Assembly (NCBI GenBank): GCA_017535925.1
Contig: JAFXTD010000042.1
Span: forward strand, 1-47,383
Direction: 5' to 3'
Length of the DNA stretch: 47,383 nucleotides
Source of the DNA: Selenomonadaceae bacterium
GTDB lineage: Bacteria > Bacillota > Negativicutes > Selenomonadales > Selenomonadaceae
The position numbers and the translations under genes are program-made. Below the pieces are notes generated by a model. That model did no database searches. It worked only from the letters and a program-made list of their open reading frames with translations, and was not told where the DNA came from. Every line of letters starts with the position of its first letter. The first letter of the stretch is position 1. Positions 8,828-36,952 of the stretch are shown here, piece after piece.

Positions 8828-8864
8828 TTAATCTCCTCCCTGTCACTCGCAGGTCAAACGGTGA

Positions 8865-9030
8865 TTGTCAATCGAGCAGTTCTCCCGACTTCGGCTCAAT
8901 GTTCCTCTGCGCCTTCCCAAGTTTCCTCAGTGACATAACTTATGCAGAGTCGCTCCCCGCTACGGTGACGTGATCGTTCCGGCATTTGACCGGATTCCCT
9001 ATTGAGGCTTGCGCCACTCGACCCAATCGA
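8865..9030 (-). ncRNA. Cobalamin riboswitch, apparently without a target gene
   Basis: Read on the minus strand, the region carries the ordered hallmarks of an adenosylcobalamin riboswitch: GCCTCAATAGGGAATCCGG, then CGTCACCGTAGCGGGGAGCG, the B12-box-like GTCACTGAGG (8925-8934), GGGAAGGCGC (8909-8918), and GAGCCGAAGTCGGGAGAAC. The ends pair as GTCGAG (9017-9022) with CTCGAT (8871-8876), forming P1. Some positions deviate from consensus (GAACTGC instead of GACCTGC, GTCACTG instead of GCCACTG), suggesting decay. Downstream on this strand a CCTG/CAGG hairpin leads into GGGAGGAG and an ATG, but no ORF follows, only the heptamer array and then sequence antisense to the 8191 gene. Confidence 0.75.
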
Positions 9031-9088
9031 TATGAAATTTTCAACGCGCCTATTTTCCTGCAAATCGCCGCGTTTGTCAATAAAAATC

Positions 9089-9537: not shown

Positions 9538-9550
9538 TTTTGACTTTTCA

Positions 9551-9578
9551 CGTCGTGCAATCTGCGCGGCGTTTTTTT
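9551..9578 (+). terminator. rplS terminator
   Basis: CGTCGTGC / GCGCGGCG stem (8 bp with two G-U pairs), 5-nt loop, then seven T. It lies 13 bp after the rplS stop. Confidence 0.75.
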
Positions 9579-9579
9579 A

Positions 9580-9607
9580 TTGAAAAGTTTGTTTGGCACA
9601 TTATAAT
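9580..9607 (+). promoter_or_regulatory. Promoter of the Tat hydrolase cluster
   Basis: TTGAAA (9580-9585), 16-bp spacer, TATAAT (9602-9607), about 30 bases before the amidohydrolase start. It begins directly after the rplS terminator. Confidence 0.65.
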
Positions 9608-9638
9608 ATCATCTGAACTTTTGAAAGGACGTGATGTT

Positions 9639-11381
9639 ATGTTCAAAGGACTAACCCGAAGAGAATTCATCAAGGCAGCGTCGTTGGCGGCGTTGTCAAT
9701 GACGTTTCCTGTTGAAGTTTTCGCGGCGAATAAAACTGACGCCGACCTCGTTGTTTACGGAAAGATTTTCACTTCCGAAGGCAATCGAATTGTCGAAGCG
9801 TTCGCAGTCAAGGACGGCAAGTTTGTTTATGTGGGCGACAAAGCCGGAGCCAAAGCTTTTATCAAAAAAGGCAAAACGGAAATTATCGACCACACCGGCA
9901 AGGGGCTTGTCATGCCCTCGTGCGGCAACGGTCACGCGCATTATTCTATGGGTCATTCCATCCAAGCAGTCGGAACGATTATTGACAGGGAAGATGATGT
10001 GAATAAGTTTTTGACGGAAATCGTTCCCGCTGCAGTCAAGAAGGCAAGAGAGACAAACGCAACGGCTATCTTCGGCTTCGGCTGGAATATGATGACCTTC
10101 CCGAAAAATATGCCTACGCGCCAACAGTTAGATGCTATTTGCAGTGATATTCCGATTTACTTCGCGGACGAGGAAGGACACAAAGGTTTGGCGAATACGA
10201 TTTGCCTTGTCAACGCGGGAATTATGTCGAAAGACGGCACCGTACTCATGAAAGAAATTCGCGGCGGCGAAATTGTTTTTGGCTCCGACGGAACTCCCAC
10301 CGGTTTTCTTAAGGAACAGGCGGGAACTTACGTGCGTTCCTTCCTTGACAATGAAAGCCTCTACACCGTCGACATAGCAAGAACAACCCTCGACAAAGTT
10401 CAGGAGCAGTTGTTGTCAGAAGGCTACACGATGTACCTCGACGGCTGGTCTACCGTTTTCAATAACGACAATTTCTATAAAGCCGCTCATCAAATGGACA
10501 ACGCCGGCGATATGAAATTTGTCTTGGGCTTGACTTACGAAATCGAAAGCTGGATGGATGTTGACGCAACATTGGCAAAAGCAGTCGACGCCAAGAAATA
10601 CACTTCCACACGCGTGAAGCCGAACTGGATAAAACTTTTCATGGACGGCACGGTTGAAAGCGGCACGGGTTTTGTTGAGCCGCTCTATCCCGACGGGCAT
10701 CAAGGCATTCCCAACTGGTCGGAAGAGGAATTGACATATATAACTCGCAAGGCTAATGCAAACGGTTTGATAATGCACGTACATGTCATGGGCAACAAGG
10801 GCGTCAATCGCGCCGTCAACGCTTACGTCAACGGCGGCAAAGATGAAATGCGCAATACACTGGTGCATGTGTATGGCGTCCTTCCTTCAGATTATAAGCG
10901 CATGGCAGACCACAATATCTACGTCACCGAAGGTATGCTTTGGCATCACGCCGACGATGAATTGCAAGCGGAGTTGCTTGAAATTCTTCCCGAAGGCATG
11001 AAGGACAAAGGCTATCCCATGAAGTCATACTTCGATAACGGAGTCAACGTCTCCTCGCATTCGGATTTTCCCGCATTGAGCGGCAGTCCCGACGACCCCT
11101 TCGGCATTATGGAAATTGCTTTGACCGGCGTCTATCACGGCGAAAAAGGTAAGCCTTGGGATACGGACGAACTTGTCACACGCGAACAGGCTCTCAACGC
11201 TCTGACTATCGCCGTCGCAAAGCAAATGTTCCTTGAAAACGAACGCGGCAGTATCAAAACGGGCAAATACGCCGACTTCCTCCTCGTTAACAAAGACGTT
11301 TTGTCTTGCCCCGTGAAAGAGATTCACACTGCCAACCCCCAAGCGACCTACTTCGAAGGTGAGAAAGTTTTTTCAATGTAA
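9639..11381 (+). CDS. Tat-exported amidohydrolase (YtcJ-like), copy 1
   Basis: 580 residues from the ATG at 9639 (AAAGGACGTG upstream). The N-terminus is a twin-arginine signal: LTRREFIKAASLAALSMTFP, with a likely cleavage after VFA. The mature protein is an amidohydrolase family 3 enzyme of the YtcJ type, a metal-dependent hydrolase acting on C-N bonds: GNGHAHYSMG holds the HxH metal ligands, WIKLFMDGTVESGTG the central strand, MHVHVMGNKGVNRAV a further His motif, SSHSDFPALSGSPDDPFG the metal-binding Asp, and GSIKTGKYADFLLVNKDV the C-terminal beta sandwich. Next comes an esterase gene 12 bp downstream. Substrate unknown; export of a usually cytosolic family is noteworthy. Confidence 0.88.
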   Translation: MFKGLTRREFIKAASLAALSMTFPVEVFAANKTDADLVVYGKIFTSEGNRIVEAFAVKDGKFVYVGDKAGAKAFIKKGKTEIIDHTGKGLVMPSCGNGHAHYSMGHSIQAVGTIIDREDDVNKFLTEIVPAAVKKARETNATAIFGFGWNMMTFPKNMPTRQQLDAICSDIPIYFADEEGHKGLANTICLVNAGIMSKDGTVLMKEIRGGEIVFGSDGTPTGFLKEQAGTYVRSFLDNESLYTVDIARTTLDKVQEQLLSEGYTMYLDGWSTVFNNDNFYKAAHQMDNAGDMKFVLGLTYEIESWMDVDATLAKAVDAKKYTSTRVKPNWIKLFMDGTVESGTGFVEPLYPDGHQGIPNWSEEELTYITRKANANGLIMHVHVMGNKGVNRAVNAYVNGGKDEMRNTLVHVYGVLPSDYKRMADHNIYVTEGMLWHHADDELQAELLEILPEGMKDKGYPMKSYFDNGVNVSSHSDFPALSGSPDDPFGIMEIALTGVYHGEKGKPWDTDELVTREQALNALTIAVAKQMFLENERGSIKTGKYADFLLVNKDVLSCPVKEIHTANPQATYFEGEKVFSM

Positions 11382-11393
11382 GGAGATAATTTT

Positions 11394-12941
11394 ATGTCAA
11401 ACTTAACGCGCAGAGACTTTATCAAGATGACATCGGCGGCGGCGTTGGCAATGGCTTTTCCCGTCAACGTCTTCGCGGCGGACGACTGCACCGCCAAAAC
11501 TCGTTACGGCACGTTCAAGGGCTTTGTCGACGAAAATGGCGTAAAAACGTGGCTGGGCATTCCCTACGCTCAACCGCCCGTCGGCAAACTGCGCTGGCAG
11601 GCTCCCCAACCGCTCAAACCGACCAACAAGACCTTTGACGCGAAAAAATTCGGCTTCAGAGCTGTTCAAATTTACGATGAAAAAGGCATATCTCAAATGC
11701 CGGAAAGCGAAGACTGCTTGACGTTAAACATTTGGACACGCGGCGCAGGAAAAAATTTGCCCGTCATGTTTTTCATTCACGGCGGAGCTTTTGCCTTTGA
11801 AAGTGCAAGCGACCCGCTTTATTACGGCAATAATTTTGCGGCGGCTAATGATGTCGTTTTGGTAAGTTTTGATTATCGAATGAACGTTTTCGGCTTCATG
11901 AACTTCGCAAGCATTGATTCTTCGTTTGAGGACAGCGGCTATCTCGCCTTGAAAGACCAAGTTGCGGCTTTGAAGTGGGTTAAGGAAAATATCGCGGCGT
12001 TCGGCGGCAATCCCGACAACATTACGGTTTTCGGCGAAAGTGCCGGCGCGGTTTTAACTATGTTGCTGACGGTCACGCCCGGTGCCAAAGGTCTTTTCGA
12101 TAAAGCAATTCCTCAATCGGGCTCGTTATTTTTTTACAATGAACCGCAACAATCCGCCCGACTCGCCGAAGAGTTCATGGAAATGAACGGCGCGAAAAAC
12201 ATGCGCGACCTCATGAAAAAATCCACCGACGAACTCAAAAATGTTTACACAAAACTTGCAGAGGCTCGCGGTTTCAGTCTGACGGATTTTATGCCGACTT
12301 GCGACGGAAAATTTTTACCTCGTGACCCTGTGCAAGCACTCAAAGACGGTGCGGCTCGCGGCATTAAAATTTTAACGGGGACTACCGCTGACGAATGGCG
12401 TTGCTTCCTGTTGGCGGCTGAAAACTTATTTGAAATATTCCGCGAAGAGCCGGAAAAAAATTCTCCGATTCTTGCAAGATACAAAGCACACACTCCGCAG
12501 GAAATTTATCGCACGTGGCTCAACGGGCGTCCCGATAATGATGACACTTACGGCGACTTTGCAACGCAGTTGGATTGGCGCGTCGGGCAAGAGTTGACGG
12601 CTGAATATCAATCGGCTTACGACGATGTTTATTATTATTTGTTCAGTGAGCAGTCTCCGATTGAAATTTTGCGTTCGTGCCATGCCGTCGACTTGCCGTT
12701 TACCTTCAACAATCCCGATGACCTTTATCCGAATCCTCCGCAGAATCTCGTCAAGAAAGTTCAAACGACGTGGACGGCTTTTGCAACGACGGGCAACCCG
12801 AACAACGAAACCATTCCGCATTGGGAAAAATATTCCGCCGGCAATCGTCAAACAATGGAGCTGAACTCAAAAGGTTGCGTCTGCCACAAAGACTTGAACA
12901 CTCAAAACTTAAATTCACTGCGCTACGTCTACGAAAATTAA
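11394..12941 (+). CDS. Tat-exported type B carboxylesterase, copy 1
   Basis: 515 residues. Twin-arginine signal (LTRRDFIKMTSAAALAMAFP). The mature part is an alpha/beta-hydrolase of the carboxylesterase type B (PnbA-like) family: GIPYAQPPVGKLRWQAP, SEDCLTLNIWT, oxyanion-hole MFFIHGGAF, nucleophile FGESAGAVLT, and the His-bearing SCHAVDLPFTFNNP. It hydrolyses ester bonds of small or plant-derived substrates outside the cytoplasm. It lies in a same-strand run with amidohydrolase copy 1 (12 bp upstream) and esterase copy 2 (13 bp downstream), so an operon is likely. The C-terminus carries a conserved GCVCHKDLN motif. Confidence 0.9.
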   Translation: MSNLTRRDFIKMTSAAALAMAFPVNVFAADDCTAKTRYGTFKGFVDENGVKTWLGIPYAQPPVGKLRWQAPQPLKPTNKTFDAKKFGFRAVQIYDEKGISQMPESEDCLTLNIWTRGAGKNLPVMFFIHGGAFAFESASDPLYYGNNFAAANDVVLVSFDYRMNVFGFMNFASIDSSFEDSGYLALKDQVAALKWVKENIAAFGGNPDNITVFGESAGAVLTMLLTVTPGAKGLFDKAIPQSGSLFFYNEPQQSARLAEEFMEMNGAKNMRDLMKKSTDELKNVYTKLAEARGFSLTDFMPTCDGKFLPRDPVQALKDGAARGIKILTGTTADEWRCFLLAAENLFEIFREEPEKNSPILARYKAHTPQEIYRTWLNGRPDNDDTYGDFATQLDWRVGQELTAEYQSAYDDVYYYLFSEQSPIEILRSCHAVDLPFTFNNPDDLYPNPPQNLVKKVQTTWTAFATTGNPNNETIPHWEKYSAGNRQTMELNSKGCVCHKDLNTQNLNSLRYVYEN

Positions 12942-12954
12942 AGGAAGTGATGTT

Positions 12955-14541
12955 ATGTCAAACTTAACGCGCAGAGACTTCATCAAGGCGACATCAATGG
13001 CGGCTCTTGCCTTCGCGGCGACGGGTCTGCCAATCGACAACAAAGTTTTTGCGGCAGATAATTGCACAGTGAAAACTCGTTACGGAACATTTAACGGCTT
13101 TGTCGACAAGCAAGGCGTAAAAACTTGGCTCGGCATTCCCTACGCTCAACCGCCCGTCGGAAATCTTCGCTGGCAAGCTCCTCAACCGCTTAAACCGTCC
13201 AATAAAACTTTCGACGCGAAAAAATTCGGCTTTACGGCTTGTCAAGAAATTGACGAGAATGAAGGAGCCTCTTTAAGCCCGCAAAGTGAAGATTGCTTGA
13301 CGCTAAACATCTGGAAACGTAGCGAAAAGAAAAATTTGCCCGTCATGGTTTTCATTTATGGTGGTTCATTTGTCGGCGGCGGTTCAACTGACCCGCTTTA
13401 TTACGGAAGCAATTTTGCGGCGGCTAATGACGTTGTAATCGTCACGATTAACTATCGGTTGAACATTTTCGGCTTTATGAACTTCGCGGCGATTGACCCA
13501 ACTTTTGAGGACTGCGGCGGCTATCTCGGAATGAAAGACCAAATCGCTTCTTTGAAGTGGATTAAGGAAAATATCGCCGAATTTGGCGGAAATCCCGATA
13601 ATGTTACTGTTTTTGGCGAAAGTGCCGGTTCAATTTCAACTATGATGCTGACAATTATCCCTGCGGCAAAAAATTTGTTCCAAAAAGCAATTCCGCAGTC
13701 CGGTAATTCGTACATGTACAATACTCCGGAATATTCCGCCCAACTCGCAGAAATGTTTATGAATTTGAGCGGCACGAGAAAAATGAGCGACCTGCTGAAA
13801 AAATCTACCGCCGAACTCAAAAATATTTACGTTGAACTTACTAAAATTCGCCCTTCCAATTATTCAAGTGACTATATGGTAACTTGTGACGGAAAATTTA
13901 TCCCTCTTGACCCGTTTAAGGCGTTAAATGAAGGCGGAGCACGCGGAATTAAATTGATGACCGGTACTAACGCTGACGAATGGCATTACTGGTTACTGTA
14001 CAATGAAAACTTTTTTGAAATGTTCCGCGAAGTCAATCATGAAAAAATTTCTCCGGTCATACGTCACTATAAAGAACGCACTTCGCGCACTCCGGAAGAA
14101 ATTTATAAAGCGTGGCTGAAAAATCGTCCCGACACCGAAGAAAATTACATGGATTTCGTAAATCAAGTGGATTGGCGCGTCGGACAAGAATTGGCAGCGG
14201 AATATCAATCGAAATTTGAAGATGTTTATTTTTATCTGTTCAGTGAACCGTCGTCGAATGAAAAATTGCGTTCATGCCACTCGATTGACTTACCGTATAC
14301 CTTCAACAATCCCGACAAAGACCTTGAATTGAATCCAAAGCTCAATCTTGTAAGGGTTATTCAATCGTCGTGGGCAGCTTTCGCGGCTACCGGCAATCCG
14401 AATAACAAATTTATTCCTCACTGGGAAAAATATTCCGTCGGCAATCGTCAAACAATGGAGCTGAACTCAAAAGGTTGCGTCTGCCACAAAGACTTGAACA
14501 TGCAAAACCTCAACGCCTTGCGCTACGTCTATGAAAGCTAA
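12955..14541 (+). CDS. Tat-exported type B carboxylesterase, copy 2
   Basis: 528 residues, clearly paralogous to the gene just upstream, with an almost identical Tat signal start (MSNLTRRDFIK). Motifs: GIPYAQPPVGNLRWQAP, SEDCLTLNIWK, oxyanion-hole VFIYGGSFVGGG (Tyr for His, as in cholinesterases), nucleophile FGESAGSIST, and SCHSIDLPYTFNNP. The last ~80 bp are nearly identical in DNA to copy 1, although the rest is diverged, which hints at gene conversion. A terminator follows at once. Role as for copy 1; the pair may differ in substrate range. Confidence 0.9.
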   Translation: MSNLTRRDFIKATSMAALAFAATGLPIDNKVFAADNCTVKTRYGTFNGFVDKQGVKTWLGIPYAQPPVGNLRWQAPQPLKPSNKTFDAKKFGFTACQEIDENEGASLSPQSEDCLTLNIWKRSEKKNLPVMVFIYGGSFVGGGSTDPLYYGSNFAAANDVVIVTINYRLNIFGFMNFAAIDPTFEDCGGYLGMKDQIASLKWIKENIAEFGGNPDNVTVFGESAGSISTMMLTIIPAAKNLFQKAIPQSGNSYMYNTPEYSAQLAEMFMNLSGTRKMSDLLKKSTAELKNIYVELTKIRPSNYSSDYMVTCDGKFIPLDPFKALNEGGARGIKLMTGTNADEWHYWLLYNENFFEMFREVNHEKISPVIRHYKERTSRTPEEIYKAWLKNRPDTEENYMDFVNQVDWRVGQELAAEYQSKFEDVYFYLFSEPSSNEKLRSCHSIDLPYTFNNPDKDLELNPKLNLVRVIQSSWAAFAATGNPNNKFIPHWEKYSVGNRQTMELNSKGCVCHKDLNMQNLNALRYVYES

Positions 14542-14544
14542 AAA

Positions 14545-14573
14545 ATCCCTTCGGCAAGCGTCGGAGGGATTTG
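14545..14573 (+). terminator. Terminator after esterase copy 2 (CCCTTCGGC family)
   Basis: ATCCCTTCGGC pairs with GTCGGAGGGAT around a 4-nt loop. It is the first member of a recurring family of near-identical terminators in this window (also 17113, 17659, 33132, 33664, 34021). The T-run is poor. Confidence 0.65.
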
Positions 14574-14575
14574 CA

Positions 14576-14603
14576 TTGTCAAAAAAATTTTTTCTGCTAA
14601 ATT
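14576..14603 (+). promoter_or_regulatory. Promoter of amidohydrolase copy 2
   Basis: TTGTCA (14576-14581), 16-bp A/T-tract spacer ending CTGC, TAAATT (14598-14603). Terminator plus promoter closely resemble the block ahead of the first double-glycine peptide gene at 17113-17172. Confidence 0.6.
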
Positions 14604-14635
14604 TGTAATCAACCGTAATTTTGGAGGAGTTTATT

Positions 14636-16384
14636 ATGATTAAAGATTTAACCCGCAGAGAATTTATCAAAACAGCGTCGATGGCGGCGTTGGCAATGAT
14701 GGTTCCCGTTGAAGTTTTCGCGGCGAATAAGACCGACGCCGACCTCGTTGTTTACGGAAAAATTTTCACTTCCGAAGGCAATCAAATCGTTGAGGCTTTC
14801 GCAGTCAAGGACGGCAAATTCGTCTACGTCGGCGACAAAACCGGAGCCAAAGCTTTTATCAAAAAGGGCAAAACGGAAGTCATTGACTACACCGGCAAGG
14901 GGCTTGTCATGCCCGCCTGCGGCAACGGTCACGCCCATTACCTGTCCGCTTATGCCGTAAAATCATTCGGCACAATGATTGACTATGATGACGACGTTAA
15001 AAAGTTCATGACGGAAATCGTTCCCTCTACTGTCAAGAAGGCAAGAGAGACCGGCGCAAAAGCTGTATACGGCATGGGCTGGGAGTACGAAAAATTTAAA
15101 GCCAATCTGCCGACCCGTCAACAGTTGGATGCGATTTGTAGTGATATTCCAATGTACTTCGCCGACGAGGAAAATCATAAATCGCTGGTGAATACCCTTT
15201 TGCTGGTCAAGGCAGGCGTTATGGCGGAAGACGGCACTGTTCTCAAAAAAGCCGATGATATACGCGGCGGCGAAATCGTCTTCGGTGCTGACGGCACTCC
15301 GACAGGTTTTCTTAAGGAGCAAGCCTCAACTTACGTGCGCTCCTTCTTGGATAATGAAAGCCTCTTTAACGTCGACATGGCGAAAGCAACCTTGGCAAAA
15401 GTTCAAGAGCAGCTGTTGTCCGAAGGCTACACGATGTATCTTGACGGCTACTCAACCTATTTCTTCAACGACGTTTATTATCAAGCGGCTCAACAGTTTG
15501 AAAAGAGCGGCGATATGCATTTCGTCTTGGGCTTCACCTACGAAATTGACAGCTGGATGAACCTTGACGAGAAATTGGCAAAAGCCGCTGACGCAAAAAA
15601 ATTCGAGTCCTCGAAAGTAAAGCCGAAATGGATAAAACTTTTCATGGACGGCACTGTTGAAAGCGGCACGGGCTTCATTGACCCTGTGTATCTTGACGGG
15701 CATCAGGGTATCGTCAACTGGACGGAAGAGGAAATTACCGACATCACTCGCAAGGCAAATGAAAAAGGTTTGACGATGCACATACACGCGCTCGGCAACG
15801 CGGGCGTCAATCGCGTCGTCAATTCATACATAAACGGCGGCAAGCCCGAAATGCGCAATACGGTTGTCCACTTGCGCAACGTCAACGAGCCCGACTACAA
15901 GCGCATAGCAGACAATAACATTTATGTCACCTCCGGCATGATTTGGCACCACGCATCCAATGAACAAGCCGAGGATTATAAAACCACGCTCCCCGGAAAA
16001 ATGGCATACGAAGGCTATCCTATGAAATCTTTTTTCGATAACGGCATTCCAGTGTCCTTCCACACGGATTATCCTGCCTTGAGCAACAGCCCCGACGATC
16101 CTTTCGGAATTATTGAAACTGCATTGACGGGCGTCTGTTACTTTGAAGGCGGCGACCCTTGGTGGACTGAAGAACTCGTCACCCGCGAACAGGCTCTTAC
16201 CGCAATGACAATCGGTTGCGCTAAGCAAATGTTCCTTGAAAACGAACGCGGCAGTATCAAATCGGGCAAATACGCCGACTTCCTCCTCGTTACCAAAGAT
16301 GTTCTGACTTGTCCCGTGACGGAAATTCATACCGCAAAAACTGCGGCGACTTACTTTGAAGGTAAAAAAGTTTTCTCTATGTAA
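14636..16384 (+). CDS. Tat-exported amidohydrolase (YtcJ-like), copy 2
   Basis: 582 residues from the ATG at 14636 (GGAGG upstream). Paralogue of the 9639 gene with the same Tat signal (LTRREFIKTASMAALAMMVP). Motifs are retained: GNGHAHYLSAY (HxH), WIKLFMDGTVESGTG, MHIHALGNAGVNRVV, SFHTDYPALSNSPDDPFG and GSIKSGKYADFLLVTKDV. It has its own promoter, unlike the esterases, and it mirrors copy 1 on the other side of the esterase pair. Together the four genes look like a duplicated two-gene module for periplasmic or surface degradation of a compound with amide and ester linkages; the substrate is unknown. Confidence 0.88.
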   Translation: MIKDLTRREFIKTASMAALAMMVPVEVFAANKTDADLVVYGKIFTSEGNQIVEAFAVKDGKFVYVGDKTGAKAFIKKGKTEVIDYTGKGLVMPACGNGHAHYLSAYAVKSFGTMIDYDDDVKKFMTEIVPSTVKKARETGAKAVYGMGWEYEKFKANLPTRQQLDAICSDIPMYFADEENHKSLVNTLLLVKAGVMAEDGTVLKKADDIRGGEIVFGADGTPTGFLKEQASTYVRSFLDNESLFNVDMAKATLAKVQEQLLSEGYTMYLDGYSTYFFNDVYYQAAQQFEKSGDMHFVLGFTYEIDSWMNLDEKLAKAADAKKFESSKVKPKWIKLFMDGTVESGTGFIDPVYLDGHQGIVNWTEEEITDITRKANEKGLTMHIHALGNAGVNRVVNSYINGGKPEMRNTVVHLRNVNEPDYKRIADNNIYVTSGMIWHHASNEQAEDYKTTLPGKMAYEGYPMKSFFDNGIPVSFHTDYPALSNSPDDPFGIIETALTGVCYFEGGDPWWTEELVTREQALTAMTIGCAKQMFLENERGSIKSGKYADFLLVTKDVLTCPVTEIHTAKTAATYFEGKKVFSM

Positions 16385-17144: not shown

Positions 17145-17232
17145 TTGCAAAAAAATTTTTTTCTGCTATAATGCGTAACGAAATCGGAAATCTGACGTAT
17201 AAAGTAAAGAAAACAATTTGGAGGTTGATAAT
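17145..17232 (+). promoter_or_regulatory. Promoter and conserved 5' leader, peptide gene 1
   Basis: TTGCAA (17145-17150), 16-bp A/T-tract spacer, TATAAT (17167-17172), then a ~60-nt leader with GCGTAACGAAATCGG, ACGTATAAAG and AGAAAACAATTTGGAGG. Leader blocks in the same order precede the peptide genes at 32788, 33281 and 33787. Confidence 0.75.
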
Positions 17233-17616
17233 ATGGCAGAGGAAGGCAAAATCGCGGACGAAATGCTTAGTGAAGAAGACCTCGATAATGTTACGGGCGG
17301 TACGATAGCGGAAACAGCAGCGGACAGTTTTGCATTGTACAGACGCGGCTTAACGGATAAAGCATACGTCGGAAGTGAGCGCACTCGCAGAGTTATTAAC
17401 TTTAGAGGAAACGAGTACAAAGATCACGGCGGGCTTTTCAAGCCAAATGAATATTATGATAAGGCAGGCAATCTTACAAGCCGCGAAAATTTTTGGAAAG
17501 AATTCGATATGCAAAATCAAACGGAACCGGTTCCGGTTTCAGATGTAATTAAAGAAAAATTAGCTCCCAAAGAAGGTTCTCTCGTAATGGGCGGCTTGGT
17601 TTTATGTCCTACTTAA
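17233..17616 (+). CDS. Double-glycine leader peptide, member 1
   Basis: 127 residues, ATG at 17233 with TTGGAGG upstream. The first ~22 residues form a leader ending MLSEEDLDNVTGG, matching the double-glycine leaders of exported bacteriocin and Nif11-type peptide precursors. The core opens with ETAADSFALYRRGL and contains YKDHGGLFKPNEYYDKAGN then REnFWK(E/N)FD, both shared with the 32788 product. It has an extra 28-residue C-terminal extension. Such leaders are usually cleaved by C39-type ABC exporters, none of which is seen here. It lies alone between the secreted-protein gene and DUF445 copy 1. Whether the product is a toxin, a signal or an unmodified exported protein is open. Confidence 0.75.
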   Translation: MAEEGKIADEMLSEEDLDNVTGGTIAETAADSFALYRRGLTDKAYVGSERTRRVINFRGNEYKDHGGLFKPNEYYDKAGNLTSRENFWKEFDMQNQTEPVPVSDVIKEKLAPKEGSLVMGGLVLCPT

Positions 17617-17658
17617 AAAAGATTAATCGGTAATAAAAATCGTCTCGGCAGTAAAAAA

Positions 17659-17692
17659 ATCCCTTCGGCGTCAAGTCGACGGGATTTTTTTT
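17659..17692 (+). terminator. Terminator after peptide gene 1
   Basis: AATCCCTTCGGC...GTCGACGGGATT stem with an imperfect centre, followed by eight T. A variant of the CCCTTCGGC terminator family. Confidence 0.7.
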
Positions 17693-31762: not shown

Positions 31763-32707
31763 ATGTTTGACAAAGAAGTTTTGCAGTACAAGGTCGGCGG
31801 CTTGCTGTACATGCCGGCTTTTCAAAAAAATATCGTCAAAAAAATCGCAGAAAAAAAATTGCCGCACTTGACATCAGCGGCTTTTTGTTTGGAAGATTCG
31901 ATACGTGACGAGGCACTCGACGAGGCGGAGGCGTCGTTGAAAATAATTTTGCGGGAGCTTGAAGGCTTGGAAAATTTGCCGCTCGTGTTCGTGAGGATTC
32001 GTTCGCCGCGTCACTTGGAAATGTTTCATGAAGAAATCGGTTCGCGCTCAAAAATTTTGACGGGCTACATCTTGCCGAAAGTCGACATGCAAAACGTCGG
32101 AGCTTTTATCGGCTTGGCGAAGCAAATAAATCTTCCTATCATGCCCACGCTCGAAACCAATCGCGTTGCAAGTCTTCTGACACGCCGCACGGAACTTTTA
32201 TCGCTCAAGCAGGCTCTCGACGAAATAAAATCGATCGTGCTCAATATTCGCGTCGGCGTCAACGATTTTTGCCGGCTGTACGGTTTGCGCCGCAATGTCA
32301 ATCAGACGATTTACGATATCGGAATTGTTCGCGACGTGTTGACGGATATTTTGAATGTCTTCGCGAAAGATTATGTTGTTGCCGGCGCGGTGTGGAATTT
32401 TTTCGGCGGAGAACTTTGGGCTGACGGCTTGCGAAAAGAAATTTCCTTCGACAAAGTGAACGGCTTTATCGGCAAGACGGCGATTCATCCCGCGCAGTTA
32501 CCGATTATCTTCGACGGCATGAAAGTTTCCAAAATCGACTTCGACGACGCGAATCAAATTTTGAATTGGCAATCGGAAACTCACGGCGTTATAAAATCTT
32601 CCGACGGCTCGCGCATGAACGAGGTTAAGTGTCATTTGAATTGGGCGCGGCGCATTAAAATTCTCGGCGAACTTTACGGAGTCGTTGACAAATCCGATTT
32701 GACGTAG
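31763..32707 (+). CDS. CitE/HpcH-type C-C bond lyase of the Ter-linked cluster
   Basis: 314 residues, ATG at 31763 after GGAGG. TIM-barrel lyase of the HpcH/HpaI/CitE type (C-C_Bond_Lyase family): VGGLLYMPAFQKNI, SAAFCLEDSIRDEALDEAE with the acidic metal ligand, LVFVRIRSPRHLEMF, GYILPKVDMQNV, and GFIGKTAIHPAQLPII, the conserved C-terminal block. In tellurite-resistance-associated (Ter) operons such a lyase occurs with PRTase-TRSP, StiP/PELOTA and HAD genes, all present downstream here, in a proposed pathway for a nucleoside-like metabolite. Three peptide genes separate it from the rest. The promoter -35 of peptide gene 2 overlaps its stop. Confidence 0.85.
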   Translation: MFDKEVLQYKVGGLLYMPAFQKNIVKKIAEKKLPHLTSAAFCLEDSIRDEALDEAEASLKIILRELEGLENLPLVFVRIRSPRHLEMFHEEIGSRSKILTGYILPKVDMQNVGAFIGLAKQINLPIMPTLETNRVASLLTRRTELLSLKQALDEIKSIVLNIRVGVNDFCRLYGLRRNVNQTIYDIGIVRDVLTDILNVFAKDYVVAGAVWNFFGGELWADGLRKEISFDKVNGFIGKTAIHPAQLPIIFDGMKVSKIDFDDANQILNWQSETHGVIKSSDGSRMNEVKCHLNWARRIKILGELYGVVDKSDLT

Positions 32708-32787
32708 AAAATTTTTTTGCTAGAATATGTAACGAAATCGGATTTGGAACGTATAAGCTATAGAAAACAATTTGGAGGTTGATAAAA
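32699..32787 (+). promoter_or_regulatory. Promoter and conserved 5' leader, peptide gene 2
   Basis: TTGACG (32699-32704), 16-bp A/T-tract spacer, TAGAAT (32721-32726), then the shared leader: GTAACGAAATCGGATTT, ACGTATAAG, AGAAAACAATTTGGAGG. The -35 overlaps the end of the lyase gene. Confidence 0.75.
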
Positions 32788-33096
32788 ATGTCAAAGGAAA
32801 TTTTGAAAGACGAAATCTTGAGTGAAGACGAACTCGACGGCGTGGCGGGCGGCACCAGGCTCGAAACATTCGCCGACGGCAACGAACTTTACAAACGCGG
32901 ACTTATTAGCGCGGATGACGCATTGTGTTCGGCACCCGTGCGCGACAAGCTTCACAACATGGGTTACGGCGGCTACAAAGACAACGGCGGCATAATTAAC
33001 GGCAACATTTACACCGACAAAAGCGGCAACACGATTACCCGCGAACAATTCTGGAAAAATTTCGACGCTGAAAACGGAACCAAGATTATCCGCTGA
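32788..33096 (+). CDS. Double-glycine leader peptide, member 2
   Basis: 102 residues, ATG at 32788. Leader SKEILKDEILSEDELDGVAGG, cleavage expected after GG. The core (80 residues) shares with member 1 the order ETfAD..LYKRGL, YKDNGGIINGNIYTDKSGN and TREQFWKNFD, so both encode the same small domain rather than random tails. No Cys-rich or Ser/Thr-rich lanthipeptide-like core is seen; it has a single Cys. Own promoter, own terminator. It sits between the lyase and PRTase genes of the Ter-linked cluster. Confidence 0.75.
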   Translation: MSKEILKDEILSEDELDGVAGGTRLETFADGNELYKRGLISADDALCSAPVRDKLHNMGYGGYKDNGGIINGNIYTDKSGNTITREQFWKNFDAENGTKIIR

Positions 33097-33131
33097 TTAA
33101 ATTCTGTATTTGAAACGCAAAATGAATCCAA

Positions 33132-33162
33132 AAAGCCCTTCGGCACATGTCGGAGGGTTTTT
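33132..33162 (+). terminator. Terminator after peptide gene 2
   Basis: AAGCCCTTCGGC / GTCGGAGGGTTTTT, CCCTTCGGC family, followed by T-rich sequence. Confidence 0.8.
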
Positions 33163-33165
33163 GCA

Positions 33166-33182
33166 ATTAGGAATTAGGAATG
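33166..33182. repeat. Short heptamer repeat (ATTAGGA type)
   Basis: Two ATTAGGA units plus a partial third, between the terminator of peptide gene 2 and the promoter of peptide gene 3. Same unit as the ATTCCTA arrays on the opposite strand. Confidence 0.6.
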
Positions 33183-33191
33183 GAAAAATCT

Positions 33192-33280
33192 TTGACAGTG
33201 AAAAATTTTTTTGCTAAAGTGTGTAACGAAATCTGATTTGAAACGTATAAGTTGCAGAAAACAAATTGGAGGCTGATATT
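33192..33280 (+). promoter_or_regulatory. Promoter and conserved 5' leader, peptide gene 3
   Basis: TTGACA (33192-33197), 17-bp A/T-tract spacer, TAAAGT (33215-33220) with an extended TGC, then GTAACGAAATCTGATTT, ACGTATAAG and AGAAAACAAATTGGAGG. The AAATCnGATTT palindrome is a candidate operator. Confidence 0.8.
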
Positions 33281-33640
33281 ATGGCTGATGAAAAGAAATT
33301 CGCGGACGAAGTGATGAGCGACAACGAACTTGACGGTGTGGCGGGCGGTAATTGCTACGAAACAGCAGATGACAGCCGCTTTTTGAACAGTTTGAACGGT
33401 TCTACAGACCGCTACGGTGCCCCAAGAATTTATTTTACAGGTGAGGCTACAAGGGAATCAATTCAAGGTGCTTGGGCGAAAGTCGGCATATATGCCAAAA
33501 TCAAAAAAAATTATATTCCAAGCAACGGAACAAGCAACGAATATTATCTTAACGGGCAGCAAATCACGCAGGAAGAGGCTCGTCAGCATGCAATGAACGT
33601 CACAGGGCACTATATGAGCGAATCTGATTGGAAATGGTAA
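33281..33640 (+). CDS. Double-glycine leader peptide, member 3
   Basis: 119 residues, ATG at 33281. Leader ADEKKFADEVMSDNELDGVAGG. The core begins NCYETADDSRFLNSLNGS, sharing the ETA.DS..L motif at the same place as the other members, but the rest diverges: KIKKNYIPSNGTSNEYYLNG then ITQEEARQHAMNVTGHYM. EYYLNGQQITQEEA may be a distant version of the EYYDKAGN...REnF block. Own promoter and terminator. The divergence between tandem copies fits an accessory, diversifying gene family. Confidence 0.72.
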   Translation: MADEKKFADEVMSDNELDGVAGGNCYETADDSRFLNSLNGSTDRYGAPRIYFTGEATRESIQGAWAKVGIYAKIKKNYIPSNGTSNEYYLNGQQITQEEARQHAMNVTGHYMSESDWKW

Positions 33641-33663
33641 AAAAATCGTCACGGCAGTAAAAA

Positions 33664-33694
33664 AAGCCCTTCGGCTAGTGTCGAGGGGTTTTTT
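33664..33694 (+). terminator. Terminator after peptide gene 3
   Basis: AAGCCCTTCGGC / GTCGAGGGGTT then six T; CCCTTCGGC family. The next promoter's -35 starts three bases later. Confidence 0.75.
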
Positions 33695-33696
33695 CG

Positions 33697-33786
33697 TTGA
33701 CTGCGGAAAATTTTTTTGCTAAAGTGTGTAACGAAATCGGATTTTCGACGTATAAGCGATAGAAAACAAATTGGAGGTTGATAATT
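33697..33786 (+). promoter_or_regulatory. Promoter and conserved 5' leader, peptide gene 4
   Basis: TTGACT (33697-33702), 17-bp A/T-tract spacer, TAAAGT (33720-33725) with an extended TGC, then GTAACGAAATCGGATTT, ACGTATAAG and AGAAAACAAATTGGAGG. Confidence 0.8.
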
Positions 33787-33978
33787 ATGGCAGACGAAAA
33801 AATTTTGAAGGATAAAGGCTTGAAAGACGAAAAAATCTTGAAAGACGAACTCTTGAGCGAGGAAGAACTCGACAAAGTCGCGGGCGGTGCACCTAGTAAA
33901 ATGTTTGAACAAAATCCGAACACCGCCAACGATTCAAATCTGCTTAGTAATTTGGGGGGAAGTTGGTGGACAAAATAA
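33787..33978 (+). CDS. Double-glycine leader peptide, member 4 (short)
   Basis: 63 residues, ATG at 33787. The leader is longer than in the other members and internally repetitive (KILKDKGLKDEKILKDELLS), ending EEELDKVAGG. Only ~29 residues follow, with NTANDSNLLSNLGGS corresponding to the ETA.DS..L start of the other cores and then WWTK. It is either a naturally short precursor peptide or a copy truncated in its core. Own promoter and terminator, identical in style to members 2 and 3. Confidence 0.68.
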   Translation: MADEKILKDKGLKDEKILKDELLSEEELDKVAGGAPSKMFEQNPNTANDSNLLSNLGGSWWTK

Positions 33979-34020
33979 GATAACCAACAAAAACGCGGCG
34001 GACGGTCGCAATCGGTAAAA

Positions 34021-34053
34021 AAAGCCCTTCGGCGCATGGTCGGAGGGCTTTTT
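34021..34053 (+). terminator. Terminator after peptide gene 4
   Basis: AAGCCCTTCGGC / GTCGGAGGGCTTTTT; CCCTTCGGC family, three bases before the next -35. Confidence 0.8.
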
Positions 34054-34055
34054 CG

Positions 34056-34084
34056 TTGACGGCGAAAAAATTTCTTGATAAAGT
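34056..34084 (+). promoter_or_regulatory. Promoter of the PRTase-StiP-HAD genes
   Basis: TTGACG (34056-34061), 17-bp A/T-tract spacer, TAAAGT (34079-34084) with an extended TGA. The promoter matches those of the peptide genes, but the conserved leader is missing: the RBS GGAGG (34091-34095) comes almost at the expected transcription start. Confidence 0.65.
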
Positions 34085-34103
34085 GTGTTCGGAGGCGATT
34101 TTG

Positions 34104-35198
34104 TTGAAAATTTTCAGAGCTGAAGATGTTTTGCGCGTCGCCAAAAGATTAAACAACACGCGGCGAAATTATTTGCTGGTCAATCCGTTGCAGGGAAAGC
34201 ATTTGCCCGTAAAACCTTCCGCCGCGCTCGAAATGATGAACGCTCTCGGCTTGAAGGTCGCGGAAAAATTTTCGGAAGCAAGATTGGTTATCGGCTTCGC
34301 GGAAACGGCAACGGCAATCGGAGCGGTCGTCGCGAAAAATTTATCGGACGAATGCTTTTATCTTCAGACGACGCGGGAAAATTTTTCGGGCAAGTTCATA
34401 GAATTTTTGGAGGAGCACTCTCACGCGCCCGAACAAAAAATTTTCGCCGAAAATCTTTCCGAGCTGATTAATCGAACGCACGAAATTATTTTTGTCGACG
34501 ACGAACTTTCGACCGGCAAAACTCTCTTGAACATCGTCCGCCAACTCAAAAATGAATTTCCCGCGCTCAACGATAAAAAAATCTGCGCGGCGTCGATAAT
34601 CAATCGCTTGTCGGAAGAAAATCTTGCGGCATTGGCGGCGGAAAATATTTCTTGCGTTTGGCTCGTCAAGCTCAATCAAAATTTCGATGCGGAAAAATTT
34701 TCTGTCGAGGCGGCAAGCAAAGTCAATCACGTTGAAAAAAATTTTACGTTGCATGAAAAATTTTTTACGGTTGATGCGAGGCGCGGCGTCAAAATCGGCG
34801 AATACTTTGCTCAATGCGCTGAACTTGGAAATTTTATCGTCGAACTTTTAAAGCGCGAGAACATTTCGGGCGAAATTTTGATTATCGGCACGGAAGAATT
34901 CATGTTGCCCGCGATTGTTGCAGGTCGTCGGCTTGAGTCGGAAAATTTTTCTTGCGTCACGCATTCGACGACGCGCAGTCCGATTGGCATTTGCAAAGAA
35001 AAAAATTATCCGATTCGCGAAGGCTTCAAGCTCCGAAGTTTTTATGATTCGACGCGCACGACTTTTATTTACAACTTGAAATTTTATGACGCGGCGATTA
35101 TCGTGACGAACGCCGAAAATTTTTCTGACGGCTTGGAAGATTTGATTGCCGCGCTTGAAGTTCACGGCGTCGAAAAAATTTTTATCGTGAGGTGTTGA
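34104..35198 (+). CDS. Phosphoribosyltransferase with TRSP domain (Ter-linked)
   Basis: 364 residues. The TTG at 34104 is chosen (GGAGG eight bases upstream). The N-terminal half is an orotate-type PRTase (PRTase_2): YLLVNPLQGKHLPVKP, VIGFAETATAIGAVVA and the PRPP-binding IIFVDDELSTGKTLLNIV. The C-terminal half is the TRSP domain, recognisable by HSTTRSPIG followed by IREGFKLRSFYDSTRTTFIY. This fusion is characteristic of the Ter-associated biosynthetic gene set. StiP follows after one base. Proposed role: attaching a ribose-phosphate to a base-like precursor (inference from published comparative genomics). Confidence 0.88.
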   Translation: MKIFRAEDVLRVAKRLNNTRRNYLLVNPLQGKHLPVKPSAALEMMNALGLKVAEKFSEARLVIGFAETATAIGAVVAKNLSDECFYLQTTRENFSGKFIEFLEEHSHAPEQKIFAENLSELINRTHEIIFVDDELSTGKTLLNIVRQLKNEFPALNDKKICAASIINRLSEENLAALAAENISCVWLVKLNQNFDAEKFSVEAASKVNHVEKNFTLHEKFFTVDARRGVKIGEYFAQCAELGNFIVELLKRENISGEILIIGTEEFMLPAIVAGRRLESENFSCVTHSTTRSPIGICKEKNYPIREGFKLRSFYDSTRTTFIYNLKFYDAAIIVTNAENFSDGLEDLIAALEVHGVEKIFIVRC

Positions 35199-35199
35199 A

Positions 35200-36246
35200 A
35201 TGTTCGGGATTTATCGGGCGCAAGACGTAACGATTTTATTAAAAGACATCAGCGGGCTTGTAAAACCTCTTCCAACCGCCGAACGAGAAAAATTGATTCA
35301 AGCGGGGCGACACTATTCGGAAATGTTGCCGATTGAATACGAGCCTTCGGAAAAATATTTGCAAGCCTACTTCGACGCGCTCAAGCGTTATTCAAAAATC
35401 ACTGCCGCCTCCGTTGCAAGCGTCTCCGAAAAAATTTTCCTCAACAAAGGAAAAAAAATTGTGCTTGTGTCTTTGGCGAGGGCGGGCACTCCGATTGGAA
35501 TTTTGATTAAACATTACCTTGAGCAAAAATTTTCCTGCGCGGTCAATCATTACACGATTTCGATTATTCGCGGCGTCGGTATCGACAAGAACGCCGTCAA
35601 TTTTATTTTGAAACGTCACAAGCCCGAAGAGATTCAATTTGTCGACGGCTGGACGGGCAAGGGCGCAATTCAACGCGAACTTTCCAAAGCAATGAAAGAT
35701 TTTCCGAACGTTGACGCGGGCTTGGCTGTTTTGAGTGACCCTGCCGGCGTTGCGAAATTTTGCGGCACTTACGAGGATTTTTTAATCGCAAGCTCTTGTT
35801 TGAATTCGACGGTTTCGGGTTTGTTGAGCCGAACTTTTTTGCGAAGCGACATTATCGGTGCGGAGGACTTTCACGGCGCGGCTTTTTATTCTGAACTCGT
35901 CGACAAAGATTTGACTTATCAATTTATCGACGCCATCGAAAAAAATTTTGACGCCTTGCCCGCAATAAAAAATTCCGCCGTCGAAAAGAACAGCGGACTT
36001 GCCGAAGTCAAACGAATCGCCGCAGATTTTTCAATCGCCGACATAAATTTAATCAAGCCCGGTATCGGTGAGACAACGCGGGTTTTACTTCGCCGCCTGC
36101 CGCAAAAAATTTTGGTTCGGAGCCTGAACGATGAGAATTTGGAACATTTATATCAGCTTGCAAAGGAGAAGGGCGCGCCGCTTGAAATTTATCCGCTGAA
36201 AAATTACAAGGCTTGCGGATTGATTCGGCGGCTTGCAGATAATTGA
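35200..36246 (+). CDS. StiP-family PRTase-like protein with PELOTA domain
   Basis: 348 residues, ATG at 35200. The body is the StiP ('cysteine protease StiP')/PRTase_1 family: FDALKRYSKITAASVASVSE, VLVSLARAGTPIGILIKHYL and the PRPP-loop IQFVDGWTGKGAIQREL. The C-terminal ~70 residues (NLIKPGIGETTRVLLRRLPQ, then KEKGAPLEIYPLKNYKACGL) look like the PELOTA RNA-binding-like domain often fused here. It is translationally packed between PRTase-TRSP (1 bp upstream) and the HAD gene (1 bp downstream). Biochemical activity is unproven; context supports a nucleotide-like metabolite pathway. Confidence 0.87.
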   Translation: MFGIYRAQDVTILLKDISGLVKPLPTAEREKLIQAGRHYSEMLPIEYEPSEKYLQAYFDALKRYSKITAASVASVSEKIFLNKGKKIVLVSLARAGTPIGILIKHYLEQKFSCAVNHYTISIIRGVGIDKNAVNFILKRHKPEEIQFVDGWTGKGAIQRELSKAMKDFPNVDAGLAVLSDPAGVAKFCGTYEDFLIASSCLNSTVSGLLSRTFLRSDIIGAEDFHGAAFYSELVDKDLTYQFIDAIEKNFDALPAIKNSAVEKNSGLAEVKRIAADFSIADINLIKPGIGETTRVLLRRLPQKILVRSLNDENLEHLYQLAKEKGAPLEIYPLKNYKACGLIRRLADN

Positions 36247-36247
36247 C

Positions 36248-36952
36248 ATGAAAATTTTATTCGCCTGCGATTTGGACAACACGTTGATTCATTCCTACAA
36301 AAAATTTCGTGCGGGAGATATTTGCGTTGAAATTTACGACGGGCGCGAACAAAGTTTCATTTCACCCGAAGCCCTCGACCTGCTCAAGACGATTGCCGCG
36401 AAAATTTTTTTTGTGCCTTTGACGACACGTTCAATCGCTCAATATCGGAGAATTTTTTGGACGGAGGATTTTTTTCCGAGCTTGGCTGTCGTCGCGAACG
36501 GAGCTTATCTTTTGGACGGCGATAATCAAGAAAATTTTTTGCGTGAAGTCGTCGTGCCTCACGAGGAGGAGCTGAAAACTTTGCAGGAAAAATTTTCCGA
36601 CAATCCCGCGTTCAATATCTGCCGCATTGTCGACGAAAGCTTTTTGTTTTTGAAGTGCCGTGACGACCTCGACGCCGATAAAATTTCTTTCGACACGAGC
36701 TTGACCGTTCAACGCTTCGGGAAAAAAATTTATCTCTTCCCGCCGAAACTCAACAAGGGCGAGGCATTAAAATTGCTGACAAAAAAATTTTCGCCCGATA
36801 AAATTTTCTGCGCGGGCGATTCGGAAATCGATTTGTCGATGCTTGAGCTTGCTGACGTTGCCTTTGCTCCAAAAAATCTTTGCGGAAAAAAATTTGTCTG
36901 CTTCGAAACCGCCGAAGAATTTTTGAAACGAATCGCGGAGGAATTTTTATGA
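36248..36952 (+). CDS. HAD-family phosphatase (Ter-linked)
   Basis: 234 residues. Start ATG at 36248, one base after the StiP stop. HAD superfamily, Cof-like: motif I FACDLDNTLIHS, motif II FVPLTTRSIAQYRRI, motif III lysine in PPKLNKGEALKL, motif IV IFCAGDSEIDLSMLELAD. In Ter-type clusters a HAD phosphoesterase is thought to dephosphorylate the product. It overlaps the next gene by 4 bp (ATGA). Confidence 0.87.
   Translation: MKILFACDLDNTLIHSYKKFRAGDICVEIYDGREQSFISPEALDLLKTIAAKIFFVPLTTRSIAQYRRIFWTEDFFPSLAVVANGAYLLDGDNQENFLREVVVPHEEELKTLQEKFSDNPAFNICRIVDESFLFLKCRDDLDADKISFDTSLTVQRFGKKIYLFPPKLNKGEALKLLTKKFSPDKIFCAGDSEIDLSMLELADVAFAPKNLCGKKFVCFETAEEFLKRIAEEFL

Follow-up and report, generated by a model that had tools for sequence, protein, structure and literature searches.

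The closest described relatives of the genes considered here are the NHLP/Nif11-leader peptides (TIGR03793, TIGR03798) with their NHLM export proteins (TIGR03794, TIGR03796, TIGR03797) and the CTB family of bacteriocins (NF038167). On the regulatory side, Clostridium sigma factors of the TcdR/UviA group are dedicated to toxins and bacteriocins, and a study of methanobactin reportedly found an extracytoplasmic function (ECF) sigma factor beside the genes of a peptide natural product. The whole stretch of DNA that was analysed, called the window below, comprises 47,383 nucleotides of contig JAFXTD010000042.1 from a Selenomonadaceae bacterium (GCA_017535925.1; the own genome, an assembly of 2.59 Mb in 76 contigs, 91% complete). 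Four of its genes encode proteins with leaders ending in a double glycine (GG). The best explanation of the whole, held here with good confidence, is that these genes of a Quinella-like rumen bacterium belong to a dispersed ECF sigma regulon of exported GG cargo, with an NHLM exporter and a probable feedback protein that ends in AAG. GG proteins that leave through NHLM exporters are of a known kind, to which the case adds a proposed ECF regulon, a family of folded cores and a leader imitation ending in AAG; nothing in the literature searched combined a scattered set of NHLM-type cargo with an ECF sigma factor of its own, its readable promoter and a neighbour that imitates the leader.

Exporter genes over three model cut-offs are shared with the NHLP/Nif11 system, and one regulon member in a relative (G023) carries a Nif11 leader (35.4 bits, cut-off 32.3), which ties the cargo set to NHLM-type substrates. 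In contrast to that system, the window leaders are short and none of the four proteins matches TIGR03793 or TIGR03798 at E values up to 10, the cores are mostly a folded domain, and ECF control and the AAG protein are added. Likeness to NF038167 is found in the leader region (E 0.0002 to 0.04), the match being limited to the leader and the first core residues, and the window proteins reach 14-22 bits against a cut-off of 32. The methanobactin case concerns one operon and a modified peptide, whereas the regulon described here is dispersed and its proteins look unmodified. The TcdR/UviA group, to judge also by two reference titles in PMC8103513, shares a special sigma factor for an exported product; here, by contrast, the genes are numerous and dispersed, an NHLM exporter is involved, and a neighbouring protein imitates the leader. 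The main text of the Quinella genome paper (PMC9585023) makes no mention of bacteriocin, Nif11, lantibiotic or sigma factor.

All four genes lie where the sequence-only reading had placed them (32788, 33281, 33787 and 17233), in the following cassettes:

17154..17164, + strand: A/T tract (UP-like) of cassette 1, placed by site profile and sequence
17174..17202, + strand: putative ECF-type promoter of cassette 1, CGTAAC-N16-CGTATAA, from the block search with 1 mismatch
17233..17616, + strand: gene of cassette 1, 127-residue GG-leader protein, core starting at 17302, from the translated reading frame
17654..17690, + strand: hairpin terminator of cassette 1, fold -18.4 kcal/mol
32708..32718, + strand: A/T tract (UP-like) of cassette 2, from site profile and sequence
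32728..32756, + strand: putative ECF-type promoter of cassette 2, block search, 0 mismatches
32788..33096, + strand: gene of cassette 2, 102-residue GG-leader protein, core starting at 32854, from the translated reading frame
33131..33162, + strand: hairpin terminator of cassette 2, fold -20.2 kcal/mol
33222..33250, + strand: putative ECF-type promoter of cassette 3, block search, 0 mismatches
33281..33640, + strand: gene of cassette 3, 119-residue GG-leader protein, core starting at 33350, predicted small domain, from the translated reading frame and a structure model
33661..33694, + strand: hairpin terminator of cassette 3, fold -21.5 kcal/mol
33727..33755, + strand: putative ECF-type promoter of cassette 4, block search, 0 mismatches
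33787..33978, + strand: gene of cassette 4, 63-residue GG-leader protein, short core starting at 33889, from the translated reading frame
34019..34053, + strand: hairpin terminator of cassette 4, fold -23.9 kcal/mol

The leaders of the four proteins measure 22 to 34 residues and each closes with the double glycine, their ends reading LSEDELDGVAGG (gene at 32788), MSDNELDGVAGG (33281), LSEEELDKVAGG (33787) and LSEEDLDNVTGG (17233). A common block, TGTAACGAAATCNGA-N6-ACGTATAA, stands 30-31 bases upstream of the start codon in all four genes. The CCCTTCGGC-type hairpins described by the sequence-only reading do lie 3' of every gene, with computed folds of -18.4 to -23.9 kcal/mol; a terminator scanner flagged none of the three within 32650-34150, probably because the T run was absorbed into the stem. 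The core start ETA.DS..L, claimed for the family, is present in two of the four proteins (33281, 17233) and absent from the other two (ETFADGNEL at 32788, no such motif at 33787).

These genes are part of a dispersed, genome-wide GG set that is larger than first described. A search of the whole genome for the block, with up to 3 mismatches, gave 12 matches on seven contigs against 0 for the reversed pattern, and a GG-leader gene lies downstream of all 12; a protein search of the genome gave 9 matches on six contigs. The claim of a family, which had been made to depend on further cassettes and on a C39 transporter in the genome, survives, since both were found. That this family diversifies was also borne out: the leaders of the 12 genes have a mean identity of 54%, against 26% for the long cores (15 pairs). 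The core of the copy on contig C25 is hydrophobic and glycine-rich and that on C45 has 24 residues, so that cores vary while promoter and leader persist. On C44 the promoter is intact and the core seemingly frameshifted, and an extra copy on C57 has a decayed block and a stop codon inside its leader. At locus L038, the 50-residue C45 cassette (2536-2688, - strand) stands just beyond the end of a glycine-rich RTX-like protein named by eye (2856-3347, - strand).

The best reading of the shared "leader" of the genes is a promoter of ECF sigma type, in which an A/T tract is followed by TGTAAC-16 bp-CGTATAA. Across 122 distinct block sites, gathered with the search pattern from the own and other genomes, the bases of TGTAAC and CGTATAA, 16 bp apart, are each kept in 97-100%, a conservation that is partly built in because the sites were chosen by pattern; the spacer holds 0.12 to 1.35 bits, except for two invariant A following its first base. 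Outside the search pattern, the upstream tract AAAAWTTTTTT is present with up to 2 changes in 114 of 123 sites, and a CAGAAAA stretch downstream of the block is conserved. The two boxes are similar to those of SigW/SigX-type ECF promoters, and the A/T tract resembles an UP element. The sequence-only reading had given each gene a promoter and a leader, in effect a sigma-A promoter plus an RNA leader. Sigma-70-like hexamers are present (32699, 33192, 33697), and 32650-34150 holds 7 sigma-70-like sites against 2.1 +/- 1.6 in shuffled sequence; as the defining control this arrangement was not upheld, the conserved block fitting an ECF promoter instead. The exact promoter gave 204 matches, against 3 for the reversed control, in 28 genus genomes, where it is present in 17 and occurs at up to 27 sites in a single genome; beyond the genus, its frequency does not exceed chance. 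Such a promoter allows the cargo set to be listed from DNA alone.

A sigma factor that could read these promoters is encoded on contig C56. The own genome has six sigma-70 genes, five of which match RpoD, RpoD-like (two), FliA/WhiG and SigH models; the sixth (C56:6099-6641, 181 residues) is its only ECF type. This short protein holds regions 2 and 4 (PF04542, 66.5 bits; PF04545, 51.4; PF08281, 50) and is matched best by ECF subfamily models, with scores below the equivalog cut-offs. An alpha-amylase-family gene lies nearby. No match to PF13490, the zf-HC2 zinc-binding anti-sigma family, turned up in the genome at E values up to 0.1; other anti-sigma families were not searched. With a looser pattern the own genome yields 15 block sites against 1 control match, namely the 12 cassettes, the C57 copy, C24:109316 and one starting within the ECF gene's stop codon, ahead of a 63-residue protein.

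Relatives of this sigma factor occur in 28 of the 41 genus genomes searched. Behind all 13 orthologs (72-100% identity, the own included) stands the block and then a small protein (two copies in L138), when each box may differ at one base and the spacer may measure 15-17; the block lies within 18 bases of the stop in 12 and at +141 in one, and its spacer is 16 in 11 and 17 in 2. Eleven of 17 distant sigma loci were parsed: nine have no such site, L159 carries a degenerate version at its stop, and L157 carries two such versions at a greater distance. Block and sigma factor also occur together across genomes, in sets compiled by hand from search listings. At 57% identity or more, 13 of 37 shared genomes have both, 4 the block only, 3 the sigma factor only and 17 neither (p=0.0002), at 70% identity the same counts are 10/7/1/19 (p=0.0007), and the exact promoter gives 8/1/0/8 in 17 shared genomes (p=0.0004); these p values are only guides because the genomes are related and incomplete.

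The statement of the sequence-only reading that no exporter lies in the window holds, and one is found elsewhere in the genome. At C24:315-8893 a row of genes encodes a TolC-family protein (below the cut-off of its own model), an RND-type adaptor, HlyD, ABC1 with a C39 peptidase, and ABC2; the NHLM models give 240.3 bits for HlyD (cut-off 156.2), 978.7 for ABC1 (853.3) and 745.7 for ABC2 (709.4). ABC1 is over its cut-off in 26 of the 41 genus genomes, with 36 matches, and the coordinates place an ECF gene no more than 5 kb from 10 of these. According to gene maps it directly follows ABC2 in four relatives (G031, G028, G060, G002) and stands beyond TolC in three (G016, G035, G032). ABC1 and an ECF match are associated across genomes (19/3/4/11, p=0.0004, one weak ECF match in G003 excluded), whereas ABC1 over its cut-off and the block are not (11/6/11/9, p=0.74), which suggests that several sigma types accompany NHLM exporters, each with its own promoters. 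Interrupted ABC1 genes, broken near residue 500, were seen at L248:2737-4946, G010:C7:52047-54177 and G023:C20:3584-5197.

The cargo can be followed beyond the own genome in 73 regions, fetched from 16 other genomes for holding the block. Of the 144 sites scored in fetched and own loci, 122 precede a GG-leader protein and 5 the small protein; the filter of this scoring did not capture the own C56 site. Cores measure 15-52, in one case 64, and 77-104 residues, and leaders are far better kept than long cores (58% against 24% mean identity, from a sample of 1500 pairs, in 773 of which both cores are long). The long cores form what is confidently modelled as a small domain, in which two helices are followed by three short strands and a further helix: models built from 55 and 51 sequences reach a predicted local distance difference test (pLDDT) of 92.8 with a predicted template modelling score (pTM) of 0.86, and a pLDDT of 93.5 with a pTM of 0.84. 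This domain is unannotated, with no confident match in Pfam, the PDB or a viral library. A modifying enzyme for ribosomally synthesized and post-translationally modified peptides was not noticed in the open reading frame lists of the window and C24:1-12000; the genome was not searched for one. At L080:3001-3339 (+ strand) a phosphotransferase system HPr protein (PF00381, 99.5 bits) bears a GG leader, with CGTATAA and CAGAAAA upstream, and seems to be a cytosolic protein with a captured export leader. At L166:794 (+ strand) and L223:2102 (- strand), block promoters stand ahead of two similar proteins in which a Sec-type signal takes the place of the GG leader.

The conserved protein of about 63 residues that adjoins the sigma gene, under the same promoter, has a leader-like end, AAG and not GG. 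An alignment of 15 members shows DFS, S, LL, R, LD and A-A-G in common, and one additional copy has VAAAS. The second half, EEMSLEELDxVAAAG, resembles the end of the cargo leaders, (M/L)SxEELDxVAGG, minus the GG; the first half has no Pfam or NCBIfam match at E up to 1. Among 380 genomes and 102 genera of the class, a profile of the protein finds it in 102 genomes and 14 genera, all in the window's taxonomic family bar one weak match at E 2e-4. Near distant ECF genes by NHLM exporters (L244, L245, L247), a small protein ending in AAG was also seen, with varied upstream sequences. The AAG protein may couple the ECF sigma factor to the exporter. A tentative proposal is that it is an exporter-sensing sigma regulator, whose poorly cut or uncut leader docks at the C39 site of the NHLM ABC1, so that binding, release or export would report free capacity; in a variant of this idea, a short tail of the protein would be released as a pheromone. 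The protein would then be a type I/NHLM analogue of FlgM, the exported flagellar anti-sigma factor. The likeness is confined to the proposed logic, a sigma regulator meeting an export machine; the exporter is a different one, and for the AAG protein adjacency, a common promoter and leader imitation are seen. If it senses the exporter, secretion-coupled sigma control would extend beyond flagella.

In the proposed mechanism, the C56 sigma factor would direct RNA polymerase to TGTAAC-N16-CGTATAA promoters behind their A/T tracts, each giving a short, hairpin-terminated mRNA of a single gene. The C39 peptidase of ABC1 would cleave the leader after GG, and the core would exit via ABC1/ABC2, HlyD and a TolC-family channel, while the AAG protein probably feeds back on the sigma factor through contact with the exporter. 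The arrangement hints at what may be a coordinated arsenal that senses its own export.

The word "leader" had implied a rival reading, in which transcription from a sigma-A promoter makes the block part of an RNA element. This is unlikely: compared with single-base shuffles, the RNA of the block gains no folding stability (mean z 0.24 over the first 60 of 118 sites), no Rfam family was found in it in a search of the window, TGTAAC would fall at or before the start site despite its conservation, and 13 small-protein promoters, read by eye, retain the block without TTGACA or TANNNT. Sequence within and downstream of the block is nevertheless conserved, and TTGACA-like and TANNNT hexamers with 17-base spacing stand just upstream in 51 of 118 cassettes (TANNNT in 74 of 118). 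A site for another transcription factor, with the ECF sigma factor merely travelling along, would fit the co-occurrence equally, and the overlapping sigma-A promoter could then be the real start; the layout as two non-palindromic boxes a constant distance apart, the likeness to SigW/SigX-type promoters and the presence of the block at the stop codon of the sigma gene itself in 13/13 close orthologs make it quite unlikely. Several points weigh against an ECF regulon with an NHLM exporter, besides the choice of sites by pattern and the relatedness of the genomes. A sigma-A-like promoter overlaps the block in those 51 cassettes, so that two promoters may act at one place. Four of 17 block-bearing genomes are without the close sigma factor and 3 sigma-bearing ones without the block. 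The own sigma factor and exporter lie on different contigs, the exporter has no upstream block, and block and ABC1 are unassociated. Finally, for 17 of the 144 scored sites no GG protein and no copy of the small protein was identified downstream; by eye, these are two Sec-type secreted proteins, four cargo genes with a missed or cut start, three sites with no readable frame and eight unexplained or chance sites.

On the export side, a second type I system, an HlyB-type pair at C24:66-73 kb, has both proteins over the cut-offs for PF03412 and the HlyB model. Both, however, are by inspection without the Cys of the ABC1 motif TECGAAS and so should not cleave after GG, and it is the NHLM ABC1 that the ECF gene adjoins in relatives; export of the cargo by this pair is very improbable. 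A possible, if rather doubtful, reading takes the cargo for class II bacteriocins or microcins of the ordinary sort. GG leaders, a C39 exporter, divergent cores, the bacteriocin-like C25 and C45 cores and a TIGR01847 match over cut-off in one relative agree with it, but many cores are of 77-104 residues and modelled as a folded domain, the window genes reach no model's cut-off, and an immunity gene was not noticed beside the window cassettes, where no systematic search was made.

Around 31763-36952 the window holds C-C lyase, PRTase_2/TRSP, StiP/PELOTA and HAD genes, a Ter-type set, to whose pathway the sequence-only reading had tentatively tied the peptides. This tie was not sustained and looks incidental: 4 of the 12 cassettes are on the window contig and 3 beside Ter-type genes, and among 126 fetched relative loci only L040, from a near-identical genome, has two of the three tested Ter-type genes, as judged from the fetched flanks only. 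A promoter of sigma-70-like type at 34056-34084 (+ strand), in front of the phosphoribosyltransferase gene, comes with a comparable A/T tract and lacks the ECF block. The sole Rfam match in the window is a cobalamin riboswitch at 8858-9036 (- strand, 74 bits), and 9540-16384 (+ strand) holds a row of two amidohydrolase-like and two esterase-like genes, named by eye, with repeated LTRREFIK-type N-termini.

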